Assembly (NCBI RefSeq): GCF_020405205.1
Contig: NZ_CP084470.1
Span: 248,001-312,000, forward strand
DNA length: 64,000 nucleotides
Reading direction: 5' to 3'
Origin: Natrinema salinisoli
GTDB lineage: Archaea; Halobacteriota; Halobacteria; Halobacteriales; Natrialbaceae
In this document: in pieces, positions 18,347-24,567 of the stretch
How positions within the stretch are numbered: the first letter of the stretch is position 1
Layout: each line of letters opens with the position of its first letter
The notes under the pieces: generated by a model
What the model saw: only the letters and a program-made list of their open reading frames with translations
What the model was told of the DNA's origin: nothing
Database searches by the model: none
Made by a program: the position numbers and the translations under genes

Positions 18347-18529
18347 CACTTTCTAAAGTATGTGATCGGCGGCCGTTATGAACCATGTGGACTCTCGGTC
18401 AAAGAAGAACTCAAGAAATACGGATCTATGATCTTACCAGCAACTCATTCTAACGTCGGCCCTTTCCGCTCATTCTACTGCCCGCTCATCAGTTAGCACT
18501 TCATCAAATGTTCCACGTAATCGCTCAAC

Positions 18530-18561
18530 TTTTTATCGCCCCAGAAGGGGTGAAGGGGCTG
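18530..18561 (+). promoter_or_regulatory. T-tract plus hairpin leader element, copy 1
   Basis: TTTTT at 18530 is followed by a GC-rich inverted repeat (GCCCC, loop, GGGGC) containing GGGGTGA. Near-identical arrangements stand before the ArdC-like gene (19570) and the SWIM gene (21515), always 51-60 bases before the ATG. It may be a TATA-like box with an operator, or an RNA hairpin in a short leader. Confidence 0.5.
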
Positions 18562-18583
18562 TTCTGTTGTCCCTTCGGAGTCA

Positions 18584-19513
18584 ATGATGGCAACGAGAGA
18601 TATCTATACGACGGCGTTCGACGAAGACGTCCAGACGACTACAACTACTTGTCCTGACTGTGGGGGCAGTCGCCGAAGAACTGGCCGCGAAACGATTTGT
18701 GAGGACTGTGGCCTCATGCTCGAGGAGACCCAGAATGACCGAGGACCAAACTGGGGACGGAGTGACGGGCAGGAATCGAAGAAACGGACTGGCGCACCAC
18801 TGACGCCAACGCGTCACGATCGGGGTCTGTCCACTGAAATTGGCTATCACCGAGATGGGAACGGAAACACGCTCTCGAGTTAAAAGCGACGGCAGCTGAA
18901 CCGACTGCGTCGCGAACAGTCTCGCGCACAGTGGCAGTCGAAAGCGGAACGGAACCTCGCGTATGGCCTCAGTGAAGTCCGGCGGATCGTCGCTCGTCTC
19001 GGTCTGGCGGAGAGTATCCGTGATCAGGCATGTACGCTCTTCCGACGGGCCCAATCCGAGGGGCTCTGTCACGGTCGATCGCTCGAGGCGGTAGCCGCAG
19101 CCAGTGTCTATGCAACGTCCCGATGTAACGGGTTCGGGCGATCACGGGCAGAAATCGCTGCCAGTGCTCGCTGTGATCAGGGGAGACTCACCAACGCCTA
19201 CGACGCGATGAATGTCGACCTCGAGTTACCGACACAGCCGATATCGTCGATCGATCGCATTCCAAAACTAGCGACGGAGCTCGAGGTTCCAGACCGAGTC
19301 CGTCGACGGGCAGTTGAGCTCGCACAGCAGGCGAGTGACGCTGGACTCACGATCGGCCGTCGACCGAGTGGCGTCGCGGCGGGGTGTCTGTATCTCGCTG
19401 CCGAGCGAGCTGGATTATGTCTCTCACAGCAGCAAATCGCTGATACTGCAGGAACATCGCCGAACACACTTCGAAATCGACGGGACGAGCTACTCGAGCT
19501 CGACGCCTGCTAA
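18584..19513 (+). pseudogene. Transcription factor B (TFB) with an in-frame stop
   Basis: The frame encodes a complete TFB layout. It has an N-terminal zinc ribbon (CPDCGGSRRR, CEDCGLM), the B-finger text DRGLSTEIGYHRDGNGNTLSS, and two cyclin repeats, including AGCLYLAAERAGLCLSQQQIADTAG near the end. A TAA at 18881-18883, where TFBs have a basic residue (Lys or Arg), ends the first part at 99 residues. The remaining 210 codons stay open in the same frame. TFB brings RNA polymerase to TATA promoters, and haloarchaea have many copies. The 99-residue zinc-ribbon part could still be made; otherwise this is a recent pseudogene or a sequencing error. Confidence 0.85.
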
Positions 19514-19569
19514 GAAAGAAGGACAGGATGAAGGTAGCGAGACTCCACTCGAACGGTGACTCGTGTAGG

Positions 19570-19600
19570 TTTTTCACCCCCTGAGGGGTGAGGGGCGTTC
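19570..19600 (+). promoter_or_regulatory. T-tract plus hairpin leader element, copy 2
   Basis: TTTTT (19570-19574) is followed by CACCCC, CTGA, GGGGTG, a perfect six-base-pair stem, then AGGGGCG. It lies 60 bases before the ATG of the ArdC-like gene and matches the elements at 18530 and 21515. Confidence 0.5.
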
Positions 19601-19629
19601 TCAGAAGTGAGCGTCCGTCATCGAAACCA

Positions 19630-20568
19630 ATGACTATGAGCGACTGTTCGCAGGTGTCCTTCGATAACTCAGACACCAGACGTGAGGAGATGCATAATAC
19701 GATGGAAGCGTGGGCCGAAGACCTCGTCGAGGAAGTCGACGACGCAGCCTCGAGTAAGCAGTTCCAGGAGTGGCTCGATGTGCAGAGTCGCTTCCATGAC
19801 TACTCCTACCGAAATACACTCCTGATCAACCGGCAGTGTCCACATGCGACCCGCGTCGCCGGCTATCGGACTTGGCAGACTGAATTCGATCGTCATGTGA
19901 AAGAAGGTGAAAACGCGATCTGGATCTGGGCACCAATCATCGCGAAGCAGTGTCCCGACTGTGAGAACTCGCCATCATACCACGAGCGAAGCGACTGTGA
20001 CTACGACGAGACGCCACCTGAAGAATGGTCGAAAGGTCTTGTCGGTTTTCGGCCAGCACCAGTGTTCAATATTTCCCAGACTGAGGGAGAGCAACTGCCC
20101 GAGCTCGAGACCGAAGCGACTGGAGATGTCGATGAACTACTGCCAGCGCTTCTCGAGGCAGCCTCGTCACTCACTGTGGATGTGGCGGTCGTCTCCCGAG
20201 ACGAATGGTCTCACGGCGATGCCAAGGGTATCTGTCAGTATCGTTCGCCTGCAGAGCCACCACTCGTCGAAGCACGTAACCGTGAGAACAGTGCCGATCT
20301 CGCTGTGACGCTCGTCCACGAGTACGCGCATGCCCTCTTACACAATGACACCGACGACAAGACCGAGCGCTCGAAACGCGAACTCGAAGCAGAGGCAGTC
20401 GGCTACATCGTCGGGCGGTACTTCGGCCTGGATACGAGCGGGTCGGCGTTCTATCTGGCTGCATGGGAAGGTAACGAGCCGGAGGTTATCTTCGACCGTC
20501 TCGAGTGGATCAGTTCGACAGCTGCGGAGATCATCGATGTCGTTGACGGGGTGATGGAGGATGAGTGA
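19630..20568 (+). CDS. ArdC-like DNA-binding / zinc metallopeptidase protein
   Basis: The 312-residue protein starts with an ArdC-type single-strand-DNA-binding region (about 40-140: FQEWLDVQSRFHDYSYRNTL, VAGYRTWQTEFDRHVKEGEN, IWIWAPIIAK). It ends with an ImmA/IrrE-like peptidase part with the zinc motif HEYAHALLH (about 233-241) and a downstream acid in ELEAEAVGYIVG. Between them a Cys pair insert (CPDCENSPSYHERSDC) may bind zinc. Such proteins are typical of haloarchaeal plasmids and integrated elements and may protect incoming DNA. The 3' end overlaps the next gene by eight bases. Confidence 0.75.
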   Translation: MTMSDCSQVSFDNSDTRREEMHNTMEAWAEDLVEEVDDAASSKQFQEWLDVQSRFHDYSYRNTLLINRQCPHATRVAGYRTWQTEFDRHVKEGENAIWIWAPIIAKQCPDCENSPSYHERSDCDYDETPPEEWSKGLVGFRPAPVFNISQTEGEQLPELETEATGDVDELLPALLEAASSLTVDVAVVSRDEWSHGDAKGICQYRSPAEPPLVEARNRENSADLAVTLVHEYAHALLHNDTDDKTERSKRELEAEAVGYIVGRYFGLDTSGSAFYLAAWEGNEPEVIFDRLEWISSTAAEIIDVVDGVMEDE

Positions 20569-20773
20569 TCGAAGGCTCCTCCTCGAGATCGTCACTACGC
20601 TCGAAGAGCAGGGACTCGGTCGTGACGAGTACCAATTGCAGCGGGCGGTCGATATCGAAGCACTTGAGCAACTCGTTGACTCAGCAGGTGCTGATCTCGA
20701 GGTCACATTCTCGGTTGGTGAGTTCCGTCTCTGCGTGACGCAGTCCGATGTGCAAGTTCTCGAAGGCCCGTAG
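20561..20773 (+). CDS. HalOD1-like small protein coupled to the ArdC-like gene
   Basis: This 70-residue protein overlaps the upstream stop by eight bases. Its pattern LLLEIVTTLEEQGLGRDEYQ, LQRAVDIEALEQLVDSAGA, FSVGEFRLCVTQSDVQVLE resembles the HalOD1 output domain: two helices, a D-x-EAL-x-xL helix and a final beta hairpin. HalOD1 is a haloarchaeal signalling output module of unknown mechanism. Co-translation suggests a partner of the ArdC-like protein. Confidence 0.6.
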   Translation: MSDRRLLLEIVTTLEEQGLGRDEYQLQRAVDIEALEQLVDSAGADLEVTFSVGEFRLCVTQSDVQVLEGP

Positions 20774-21093
20774 TAGGAGAACCTAGCTGGTTCTCCTATC
20801 GTATCGCACTCGATGAATCGTCGATCTTGACAGTCATCGCTCGAGGTGGCTATGGGCGAGCGGACACAGTTGGGAGAGAAAGAAGACCGGTCGCTACCGT
20901 CGTGTCTGTACTGGGGGAGAGCAGTGATTCTGGTATACACACGTAGGCAGATAGAACATATCGCATCGCCGTATGGCTGTCGAGTAGCGTCGCCAGACCT
21001 CTGTGGAATACTCTGCATCGATGTGATTGCAACCACCGATGCTACATATTTTGGAGCGGCATGATCAACGCGATTTTGAACCGCATTCAGGAG
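20774..21093. other. Gene-free stretch
   Basis: Nothing supportable was found in these 320 bases. Short frames on both strands lack family features, and the following gene is on the opposite strand, pointing toward this gap. Confidence 0.4.
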
Positions 21094-21357
21094 TTAGTCT
21101 TCCGGCATCGTCACTCGAAGTTCGCCGTCAACCTCGTAAAAGTAGCCTCGCTCGATCAACCGGGAGAGTGCGTGGGTCGCGTCCTCGGATTCAAGCCCTA
21201 AGTCATCAGTACTGCAAAGAACCTCGGTCGCTTGCTCTCGGGGGACTGACTGCACATCTTCCTCTTCAGCTGAATTGAAACTGTGAGTACAAAGGACATC
21301 GTACGCGTCTAAAATCCACCTTGGAAGCGGTGGCCGTGGATCGGAAACATCGTTCAT
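21094..21357 (-). CDS. Conserved haloarchaeal small protein (paralogue of 48417)
   Basis: This 87-residue protein shares the frame DPRPPLPRWILDAYDVLC, SVPREQATEVL, STDDLGLESEDATHALSRLI and ERGYFYEVDGELRVT with the gene at 48417-48695 in this window, about half the residues being identical. The C-terminal part looks like a winged-helix wing (two helices, then a beta hairpin). The function is unknown; a small DNA-binding role is only suggested by the fold pattern. Confidence 0.7.
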   Translation of the reverse strand: MNDVSDPRPPLPRWILDAYDVLCTHSFNSAEEEDVQSVPREQATEVLCSTDDLGLESEDATHALSRLIERGYFYEVDGELRVTMPED

Positions 21358-21514
21358 ATCGAATTCGTATTTGGAACTTCGTCATCGGCTCGGTTAAGAG
21401 CATCCCCCAACAGGTACAGAGCTGACTCCGTGAGGTATCACACCACTTCGAGTGCTGTCTCAAACAAACAGAGTCTGAGATACTTTCTACCGCCGATTAC
21501 CTAATCTGAAAGTG

Positions 21515-21543
21515 TTTTTCGCGCCTGACGGGTGAGGCGCGTC
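21515..21543 (+). promoter_or_regulatory. T-tract plus hairpin leader element, copy 3
   Basis: TTTTT (21515-21519) is followed by CGCGCC, a ten-base loop containing GGGTGA, and GGCGCG. The stem bases differ from copies 1 and 2, but the T-tract, the stem and the GGGTGAGG core are kept. It lies 51 bases before the SWIM protein start. Confidence 0.5.
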
Positions 21544-21565
21544 CACGTGTGCCTCGAGAGTACCC

Positions 21566-22126
21566 ATGAGTACAGATCGGCCAATTCAGAGCAAGCAACA
21601 CCAAGACCACCAACATGATTGCAATGACACCAGTGACCGAGAGCGACGTTATTCCGGCGACGTTGCTCGACAGAACGAGCACGAACTCGTCGCCATCGAC
21701 GAGTGGCTGCCAGGCACGGAGCCAACACCGTACGAGATCGATCTCACCGATGGTTTTGAGTACCGCACGCGCTACTGGCGCTGCCGAAACTGCGGTCAAG
21801 AACGAAATCGTCGTGACGAGTTCATCGATCGCTGTGAGACACCAGATCCACCAACTCCGCTCGGGGCCGGTGGCTACTCGATTGAGGATTCGCGAACCCG
21901 GCGTGCATTGAGCGAGGAGATGGACGTTCGCTTCGCCAGCGTGGGTTCAACCTACGAGGTCGTCAGCGAGAGCGGGAACACCTACGAGGTTGATGTTGAG
22001 ACAGAGACCTGTACCTGTCCAGATTGGGAACAACGCCAGCCCACCGGTGGTTGCAAACATCTCAGACGTGTTGAACTCGAGATCCGAACTGGAATCATCC
22101 CCGCTCCAGATGGGGCGTTCAATTGA
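21566..22126 (+). CDS. SWIM zinc-finger protein
   Basis: The 186-residue protein has a C-terminal SWIM finger, CTCPDWEQRQPTGGCKHLRR (C-x-C-x(n)-C-x-H), at about residues 150-170. It sits just after an alternating beta pattern (STYEVVSESGNTYEVDVETE). A separate Cys pair in WRCRNCGQERNRRDEFIDRC near the middle may bind a second zinc. The His-rich N-terminus (QHQDHQHDC) looks disordered. SWIM proteins bind DNA or proteins; in haloarchaea they often lie on mobile DNA near ArdC-like genes, as here. Confidence 0.75.
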   Translation: MSTDRPIQSKQHQDHQHDCNDTSDRERRYSGDVARQNEHELVAIDEWLPGTEPTPYEIDLTDGFEYRTRYWRCRNCGQERNRRDEFIDRCETPDPPTPLGAGGYSIEDSRTRRALSEEMDVRFASVGSTYEVVSESGNTYEVDVETETCTCPDWEQRQPTGGCKHLRRVELEIRTGIIPAPDGAFN

Positions 22127-22458
22127 TAACAGTAGTTGGTATACGGTTTCTTTATCCAGTGTTGGTCAGGAAACTCCGTTCAGTACAGAGATGACATTTG
22201 CCGCGGATTTTACGATTCATTCTAAATAGATAAGCCCTGCTACTATCTCCAGATAACTACTCGATCAAAACAGTGAATTCGTCGTCGAGATCGATTGTAG
22301 CAGTGGATCCAGCATATGGAAACACAATCGTCTCAATTCTATCACTAGCGAAGAGGTGAACAATTAGAAAATTATGCGATCCAATACACGTTCTAAATAG
22401 ACATTCATTGATTGTCATTGCAGAAATATTGAAGACATTCCAATTGATACAGTGTAGT
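22127..22458. other. AT-rich intergenic stretch
   Basis: No solid gene is present. A leftward frame ending at 22257 reads as a plausible short protein of about 50 residues (ending in DLDDEFTVLIE), but it has no recognisable family or clear start. Confidence 0.3.
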
Positions 22459-22668
22459 ATGAGTCCAAGACTCACGCTCGAACCGGTTGACAATATTCCC
22501 TCTGACTCCCAAGTATGCCACTACGACGAACTGAGTGAAGACGCGAAAGAAGAACTCCCTCTCCTCACAGTATCTGATGGTGTCTCTGTCGATGGATCAA
22601 TCGCAGACGGGTTCCATAACTGTGATCTCGTGAAGTCCACTGACTACTACGAGGTTTCTGTTGTCTAA
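22459..22668 (+). CDS. Conserved haloarchaeal small protein
   Basis: The 69-residue protein reads MSPRLTLEPVDNIPSDSQVC, HYDELSEDAKEELPLL and, at the end, CDLVKSTDYYEVSVV. The HYDELSE-x-AK and LVK-x-TDYY-x-V wording is that of a widespread small haloarchaeal protein without known function. Its stop overlaps, tail to tail, the end of the decayed PadR gene. A start at 22408 adds an unrelated hydrophobic leader and is not preferred. Confidence 0.6.
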   Translation: MSPRLTLEPVDNIPSDSQVCHYDELSEDAKEELPLLTVSDGVSVDGSIADGFHNCDLVKSTDYYEVSVV

Positions 22669-22951
22669 TCGATGAACTGTTCCTCCCATCTCTGCCTGTC
22701 CTCAATCGCTTCCTCTCCCTTATTAGCAATTGCATAGTAGTTTGTTCGCCTGTCGAGTTGCCCTTTCTCAACCAACTCCTTGTTGACGAGCGTGTCGAGG
22801 TTGGATAGAGCCGTCCATGACTGATATCGGCGTTGTAGTACTGTTCAACTTCGTCTTTGACGTACTGACCTGATGGTTGGTCTGCGCCTGCGATGACGTA
22901 CAACGGGTCGCGTTGGAATCCCGTGAGGTCGTCCACTTCGTTGGATTCCAT
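22665..22951 (-). pseudogene. PadR-type regulator with one-base frameshift
   Basis: The first half (VDDLTGFQRDPLYVIAGADQ, PSGQYVKDEVEQYYNADISH, GRLYP) is almost the same as the intact PadR protein at 32511-32786. After GRLYP the frame is lost. Comparison of the two genes shows one missing base near 22797-22803, just where NLDT should follow. The shifted frame then reads the expected PadR wing and ends with a WEEQFID-like tail at 22665. PadR proteins are small winged-helix repressors. This copy is probably dead. Confidence 0.75.
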
Positions 22952-23227
22952 TGGGCGTGGTGTTTGTTATCCATCCGATATCATATTATAAGCTCACTGT
23001 AGTCACCGAATCGGGCGATTCGGTTTCAGAAATCGTTCTGAATACGGGCTACTATCTACTGATAAACTGTGGGTTGAACTGATCGACCGCTCGAGATAAT
23101 TTGTCGCCCCCAGAGAGGTGCGGAGGCCCTATTGAAGCCTGCCGCAACAATCCATGCGAACAACTGATATAGCACCAGCGTCGCCAGCCGCGGAGACAAT
23201 TCAGTTCCTGAAGCGAGGTATCGCCAG

Positions 23228-23383
23228 ATGACCGAGCGCAACACGTGTCGGATACCGAATTATTCAGCACTCACTTGCGATCAGGCAGGATACGCTATCC
23301 GATTCTGTTCGGATAGCTGTGAGGTCCGAGATGACCACCTGCAGGCGGACGCTCGAGACGCGGCTCAGGAGGCTGCACTCTGA
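23228..23383 (+). CDS. Very small zinc-finger protein
   Basis: A 51-residue frame reads MTERNTCRIPNYSALTCDQA, then GYAIRFCSDSCEVRDDHLQA and ends DARDAAQEAAL. The GYAIRFCSDSC pattern resembles the treble-clef or YHS-like tail of haloarchaeal micro zinc-finger proteins. The first Cys pair is loosened (C-x9-C), which may mean decay. The remainder of 22952-23227 holds no clear gene, only a leftward hydrophobic fragment around 23056-23244. Confidence 0.45.
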   Translation: MTERNTCRIPNYSALTCDQAGYAIRFCSDSCEVRDDHLQADARDAAQEAAL

Positions 23384-24139: not shown

Positions 24140-24567
24140 TCAGGTTCCTTCCCGTGCCGTCCATTCTGCACTTGCCTCGACGGCATTCTCAATCGTCAGC
24201 CTCGCGTACTCTGGTGGCGCATCGCTCTCGTCGCCCCCACCATCTGGGAGAAACTCAAACGTTTTCTGCTCACCATCATCACCGATACGGGCAGCGAGTG
24301 TGGCGGCTGTCCCCGGCGCAGTGGAGATAAATTCCCGTCGAATGACTGTTTCTCCTGCTGGGATCGTCGTCTCAAGGGTGGCTGATGGGGAATGGTCAAC
24401 CGTTGTAACGGTGATAGACAAGTCTGACTGTGATGTATTGTAAACCCAGAGCGTCCCGCCGGGGTATTCGGGAGCGGAATCACCTTCAGAGGGAGCATCC
24501 CTACACATCCAGATATCGAGACAAGGCCGCCACCTGCCCCCACCGAAAGGAACTGCCGTCTCATCAT
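24140..24567 (-). pseudogene. Tat lipoprotein gene with frameshift at the lipobox
   Basis: The start encodes MMRRQFLSVGAGGGLVSISG followed by CVG, a Tat/lipobox signal. The mature part (DAPSEGDSAPEYPGGTLWVY, then TTIPAGETVIRREFISTAPG and a C-terminal NAVEASAEWTAREGT) is in another frame. Restoring one G in the run at 24499-24501 joins the two as CVGDAPSEGDS, so a single lost base explains the break. It may be a true frameshift or a homopolymer sequencing error. The product would be a beta-rich surface lipoprotein of unknown role. Confidence 0.7.

Follow-up and report, generated by a model that had tools for sequence, protein, structure and literature searches.

Single-stranded promoters of the Frpo and ssi type are described from the leading regions of the plasmids F and ColIb-P9 (PMC9849209, PMC11541004), and archaea are not mentioned in the second of these accounts (PMC11541004). 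Here we report an undescribed family of elements, about 55 nucleotides (nt) long, from a 64,000-nt stretch of the haloarchaeon Natrinema salinisoli (NZ_CP084470.1, positions 248,001 to 312,000; hereafter the window), which is part of the 400-kb contig C2 in a genome of 4.70 Mb and three contigs. The element consists of a T-tract and three arms, A, B and C, and with about even confidence we read it as a structured messenger RNA (mRNA) leader with competing hairpins that would mark a transfer and establishment regulon of conjugative-type plasmids.

The element resembles the Frpo/ssi promoters in occurring in several copies, in one orientation, on conjugative-type plasmids and before genes of the anti-restriction or establishment type, in its conserved secondary structure, and in the SSB-like and primase genes nearby. 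It differs in being archaeal and only about 55 nt long, in rebuilding no -35/-10 or TATA box by folding, and in standing 3′ of the transfer genes, where the cluster begins about 8 kb 3′ of VirB4. Because promoter boxes rebuilt by folding are a defining feature of Frpo and are lacking here, we do not class the element as Frpo. Bacterial attenuators and riboswitch-type leaders offer a second comparison: A and C compete for B, the last hairpin sits at the translation start, and the arms covary. Unlike those leaders, the element has no Rfam match (no family reaches gathering score across the window, and within 18400-23300 none reaches even E = 1) and no known ligand, C is not an anti-Shine-Dalgarno sequence, and one element serves at least 19 unrelated plasmid gene families. 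Haloarchaeal promoters built from a transcription factor B recognition element (BRE) and a TATA box, with operators, are similar in that an inverted repeat close to the presumed start follows a T-rich stretch. In contrast to them, no BRE or TATA box is found at a fixed distance, the arms vary freely, and the last hairpin keeps a fixed distance from the start codon, not from a TATA box.

A three-arm element precedes genes in the window

The initial annotation had described a T-tract and a GC-rich inverted repeat ahead of three genes, encoding a TFIIB-family protein (TFB), an ArdC-like protein and a SWIM protein. Both parts are present as described. TTTTT stands at 18530, 19570 and 21515, which is 54, 60 and 51 nt ahead of the ATGs at 18584, 19630 and 21566, and inverted repeats with GGGTGA cores occur at all three genes, including the CGCGCC/GGCGCG stem of the SWIM copy. 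Two features had been overlooked: B has a second partner in a third arm, C, and a degenerate fourth copy lies near 23100. In the full element, A pairs with B around a GGGTG loop, and B pairs with the downstream arm C as well.

All four copies are on the plus strand. The TFB element comprises a T-tract (18530..18534; covariance-model match window 18531-18559), then, within 18538..18559, the A arm GCCCC (18538-18542), a loop with GGGTGA and the B arm GGGGC (18555-18559). Its C arm, GTCCCTTC at 18569..18576, pairs with GAAGGGGC at 18552-18559, with one G.U. In the ArdC element the T-tract (19570..19574; match 19569-19597) is followed by the A arm, a loop with GGGTGA and the B arm GGGGCG (19592-19597), together 19575..19597; the C arm GAGCGTCC (19609..19616) pairs with B plus its 3′ extension GGGCGTTC, with two wobbles. 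The SWIM element has its T-tract at 21515..21519 (match 21514-21541), the A arm CGCGCC (21520-21525), the loop TGACGGGTGA and the B arm GGCGCG (21536-21541) within 21520..21541, and the C arm TGTGCCTC at 21548..21555, which pairs with GAGGCGCG at 21534-21541, with two G.U. The weaker fourth element (about 23099..23144; E = 0.0012 in its own genome) has a T-rich stretch, A, B as CGGAGGC and C as GCCTGCCG; a degenerate short open reading frame (ORF) follows at 23154, and a relative at C2:223835 has an intact ORF of 71 amino acids (aa). The full element is what is unusual here: GGGTGAGG by itself is ordinary in the window, with 62 matches at no more than one mismatch against 61 expected.

A and C frequently share one sequence and compete for the same B bases. 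A copy on pNG600 of Haloarcula marismortui, for example, has A as GCGCCGGC, B as GCCGGCGC and C again as GCGCCGGC, and a second pNG600 copy has A as CGTCCCGC, B as GCGGGACG and C as CGTCCCG.

Pairing of B with both A and C is conserved

We aligned the regions upstream of SWIM and ArdC genes that had been chosen by protein, from Natrialbaceae, Haladaptatus and Halorientalis. In this series the outer A-B pair is C-G or U-A and an inner pair G-C or C-G, and the covariation score is 0.229, compared with 0.098 ± 0.022 after shuffling and at most 0.083 in slid controls. An alignment of 98 distinct copies, itself fitted to the structure, has both-sided changes at each of the six A-B pairs, in 74 cells against 29.8 ± 4.4 in shuffled alignments. 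When partners were swapped between 19 gene families, the A-B and the B-C pairing both beat all 20,000 permutations in five draws (p < 5e-5). The A-B pairing sat in the search model, so that its swap test on model-selected copies is partly circular, as the protein-selected series is not; B-C lay outside the model, and its swap result is therefore free of selection. Pairing thus survives changes on both sides in the orthologous series, among the distinct copies and between families, which supports the earlier proposal of a selected structure.

The mismatches within B-C are of a particular kind. They comprise 28 G.T, no A.C and 14 others; a looser count gives 89 G.T to 13 A.C, and 695 to 305 for foreign C partners, all of these being non-independent events because gene families supply several copies each. 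Allowing G.U raises the own-over-foreign excess for B-C from 1.56 to 3.06, and allowing A.C lowers it to 1.35. By these measures B-C behaves as a helix of the sense-strand RNA. When the full element is folded as RNA, B-C is predicted for 61 of the 98 copies and A-B for 14.

The C arm is also tied to the gene that follows. In 10 of 15 families its 3′ end lies 8-11 nt ahead of the start codon (median 10), although the hairpin core stands anywhere from 20 to 55 nt away from that codon. This steady spacing of the C end anchors B-C to translation initiation.

The element is plasmid-borne and precedes many gene families

A plain consensus pattern proved too rigid as a search tool, with two matches in the own genome, and a covariance model was therefore used; a regex-type hairpin scanner was less sensitive. 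The model, R1, comprises the T-tract, arm A, the loop and arm B and was built from the SWIM, ArdC and TFB copies. In the N. salinisoli genome it matches 13 places at E < 0.01, all on the plus strand and all on the non-chromosomal contigs C2 and C3; the chromosome has no match at this threshold. The element precedes 29 of the 30 SWIM genes examined (the one in the window included); of 11 further ArdC homologues, 10 have it in clear form and one as a variant. Of 125 Natrialbaceae genomes, 67 have matches. Sampling across the phylum gave 31 genomes with matches, 28 of them in the same order and the remaining three with one weak match each.

A scan of 1.22 Mb of plasmid DNA returned 113 matches and 108 distinct sites, of which 93 have an ORF start a few to about 60 nt downstream. 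By BLAST, the downstream proteins form 21 families, of which 19 could enter the pairing tests; among the 21 are ArdC, two SWIM families, TFIIB, DUF6166, DUF6610 and DUF6735, and most others are unnamed. Several copies sit directly between adjacent co-oriented genes, with no space for an ordinary promoter. The initial annotation had named two refuting outcomes, a lack of enrichment before ArdC, SWIM or TFB genes in other genomes and lost pairing among copies, and neither came about. It had also viewed the three genes as one regulon. The shared element stands, the limit to three genes gives way to at least 19 families, and co-regulation of these families is suggested by the element that they have in common.

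A literature search found no account of the element. The TFIIB-family gene VNG_RS11900 of Halobacterium salinarum NRC-1, a strain that is readily handled in the laboratory, has a copy upstream, on pNRC200 (NC_002608, 308358-308389; locus L172), and a paper on processing sites in H. salinarum does not mention the pNRC200 genes. A viral origin was rejected: only 4 strict-pattern matches occur among 2.9 million viral contigs.

Copies follow a type IV secretion module on one strand

The matches of the plasmid scan lie on the cluster strand in 108 cases and on the other in 5. Adjacent copies less than 50 kb apart on one contig share a strand in 36 of 36 cases, multi-copy contigs are uniform in 31 of 34, and complete plasmids divide 62 to 2 by strand, with seven more that are nearly the same. 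At nine annotated loci the element precedes 49 of 178 plus-strand genes and none of 102 minus-strand genes (Fisher p = 2.5e-11). Co-oriented backbone genes could account for part of this polarity, the minus-strand genes being mostly cargo or transposons.

The strand is that of the secretion genes. On 55 contigs with both, 84 of 91 copies have the same strand as the nearest VirB4; within 60 kb, 60 of 61 do. Copies are absent from 17 kb 5′ to 7.6 kb 3′ of the VirB4 start; copies start immediately 3′ of the module, which encodes a VirB4-like ATPase, a VirD4/TraD-like protein and TrbL/VirB6. In N. salinisoli both C2 and C3 carry the module, with the same strand as the element. The association with type IV secretion genes fits the earlier suggestion that the element genes may be expressed when a mobile element becomes active.

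Genes in and near the module hint at a transfer of single-stranded DNA (ssDNA). On NZ_CP101874 (locus L114, 38774-40072) a 433-aa primase-polymerase of the NrS-1 family is encoded directly behind the TraD-like gene, with matches to the PDB primases 7rr3 and 6a9w (E about 1e-45) and to the NrS-1 polymerase HBD domain (3.6e-31). An OB-fold protein akin to replication factor A (RPA) and SSB is the product of the first conserved gene past the module, and ArdC carries an ssDNA-binding annotation. Ahead of the RPA/SSB-like gene stands a highly conserved stretch of about 180 nt with multiple hairpins, GGCGCGCTCTCGCTCGCGCC ... GGCGCGAGCGAGAGCGCGC ... GTCGGTCGTTGTCGTCGG ... ACCGCGATG/CATCGCGGT; it lies at 46068-46247 of L114, just before 183992 of C2, and at matching places in further plasmids. 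This stretch is a candidate origin of transfer (oriT) or single-strand initiation site.

A proposed two-state leader and its competitors

A two-state mRNA leader would work as follows. In the mRNA, B would have two possible partners, A on its upstream side and C close before the start codon. A-B would form first during transcription and leave the start region open, and the B-C hairpin would occupy the site where the 30S subunit must sit. Two states would result, an open A-B state, early or when stabilised, and a closed B-C state at equilibrium. A would then lie within the transcript and the open state would presumably be the "on" state, possibly set by a protein that reads the GGGTG loop or the T-tract. 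The outcome would be coordinated, transient or ligand-gated expression of many plasmid genes together.

This is the best supported of the readings considered: the B-C swap result, the G.U bias of B-C, the steady place of C before the start codon, the competition of A and C for B and the prevalence of B-C among predicted folds all favour it. Several observations weigh against this leader. Mismatches within A-B comprise 1 G.T, 3 A.C and 15 others, unlike B-C and unlike an ordinary RNA helix; the looser count of 14 G.T to 19 A.C reveals no wobble tolerance, and A-B gains nothing when either G.U or A.C is allowed; these counts, too, are of non-independent events. On these counts and gains we read B-C as an RNA helix and A-B as a helix with no sign of wobble, as would be expected of a DNA hairpin or of a very strict helix. 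The A arm may lie outside the transcript, and a few gene families have no C arm. Ahead of 91 copies the base composition and AT profile are flat, and neither a TATA box nor a BRE stands at a fixed distance; 40% of element copies, 68% of minus-strand genes and 28% of random stretches have AT-rich 7-mers upstream, and the minus-strand genes of the same plasmids have the expected peaks at -34/-35 and -26 to -29. A leader switch alone explains neither the strict polarity nor the near absence of TATA and BRE.

The polarity, the DNA-like A-B, the RNA-like B-C and the missing TATA box would all follow at once from a promoter in ssDNA, an archaeal analogue of Frpo/ssi, which we consider possible though doubtful. 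A-B would fold in the transferred strand and drive early transcription of establishment genes, RNA would start in or near the GGGTG loop, and B-C would then be a hairpin at the 5′ end of that RNA. The confinement of copies to one strand of type IV secretion plasmids, shared with VirB4 and with none between -17 and +7.6 kb, agrees with such a promoter, as do a DNA-like A-B beside an RNA-like B-C and the lack of a fixed-distance TATA/BRE at most copies, unlike the minus-strand genes. With ArdC, the RPA/SSB-like OB protein and the primase-polymerase nearby, the region also resembles a bacterial leading region. However, MOB-suite types these plasmids as non-mobilizable, and the T-tract, the sole TATA-like stretch, is unpaired and outside both helices, so that folding rebuilds no TATA box. 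The copies lie 3′ of the transfer genes, whereas the leading genes of the F plasmid lie on the opposite side of oriT from its transfer genes. About 15 copies have the half-palindrome TGTTGGTTAA upstream, which may be an ordinary promoter. We know of no archaeal single-stranded promoter; that this would be the first, switching on some 20 establishment genes before second-strand synthesis, strikes us as rather unlikely.

The initial annotation had also raised a simple dyad operator, here taken as a double-stranded site beside a TATA-like T-tract that is bound by one plasmid-encoded regulator, such as the accessory TFB. An operator would suit A-B, an inverted repeat free of wobble whose GGGTG centre is constant and whose distance to a T-rich stretch is fixed, and the SWIM copies have a BRE-like AA about 11-12 nt ahead of the T-tract end. 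Arm sequences differ freely from gene to gene, however, and for this reason the operator is disfavoured: all six A-B pairs change on both sides with the symmetry kept, where a single regulator would retain one half-site. The 91 copies have no BRE signal, and the operator leaves C, its G.U bias and its fixed distance to the start codon unexplained; we judge it improbable. We give still less weight to an element of RNA processing or stability, in which B-C, or A-B where C is missing, would cap the 5′ end of the mRNA or be cut between genes without switching. A hairpin does lie shortly ahead of the start codon in almost every copy, and the copies between co-oriented genes without promoter room are in keeping with such an element, but it accounts neither for A and C both being complementary to the same B bases nor for the restriction to one plasmid region.

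Other identities were tried and rejected. As a general rule the T-tract is not an ordinary TATA box, given the lack of a BRE and a T-to-B distance too short for B to be transcribed. A Rho-independent terminator has the wrong geometry, the T-tract preceding the hairpin on the gene strand; an integron-like recombination site does not agree with copies at set distances before the start codons of unrelated genes; and Shine-Dalgarno sequestration does not agree with C arms rich in pyrimidines or with a GGTGA-like loop too distant from the start codon.

Defined from sequence alone, this cis-regulatory element is common to at least 19 mostly uncharacterised families on haloarchaeal conjugative-type plasmids. 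It offers a handle on how archaeal plasmids establish themselves in new cells, and the shared leader flags candidate anti-defence genes. Its strict polarity makes the movement of ssDNA in archaeal conjugation, and the existence of archaeal single-stranded promoters, testable.

Neighbouring genes and further motifs

Several element genes (DUF6610, SWIM family 2), and likewise the TFIIB gene of pNRC200, have a second motif upstream that recurs, TTAACCAACA-N about 20-TGTTGGTTAA. It is found at about 20970-21010 and 24360-24420 of locus L116, about 16850-16890 of L122 and about 1634-1675 of L172, and is a probable operator. The TraD-like protein itself has a weak primase/D5-like C-terminus, and a further VirB4-like gene lies on the N. 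salinisoli chromosome (C1:1684250). C2 and C3, two plasmids of one cell, each have a VirB4 module of their own together with a separate set of element genes, and their TFB, ArdC and SWIM copies are closely similar.

The genes behind the three elements are on the plus strand. The TFIIB-family gene (18584..19513) matches Zn_Ribbon_TF (1e-9) and TFIIB (1.6e-33) in its two halves; a TAA at 18881-18883 breaks its frame, and the C3 copy (start 91078) is open over 307 aa. The ArdC-like gene (19630..20568) encodes an N-terminal ArdC domain (Pfam ArdcN, 5.6e-5) and an IrrE/M78-like protease region. Its 3′ end is overlapped by a HalOD1-like gene (20561..20773; PF18545 at 4.2e-5, below the family cut-off), and the two are probably on one transcript. 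The SWIM zinc-finger gene (21566..22126; Pfam SWIM at 0.0028, below the family cut-off) has relatives in 123 of the 125 family genomes.

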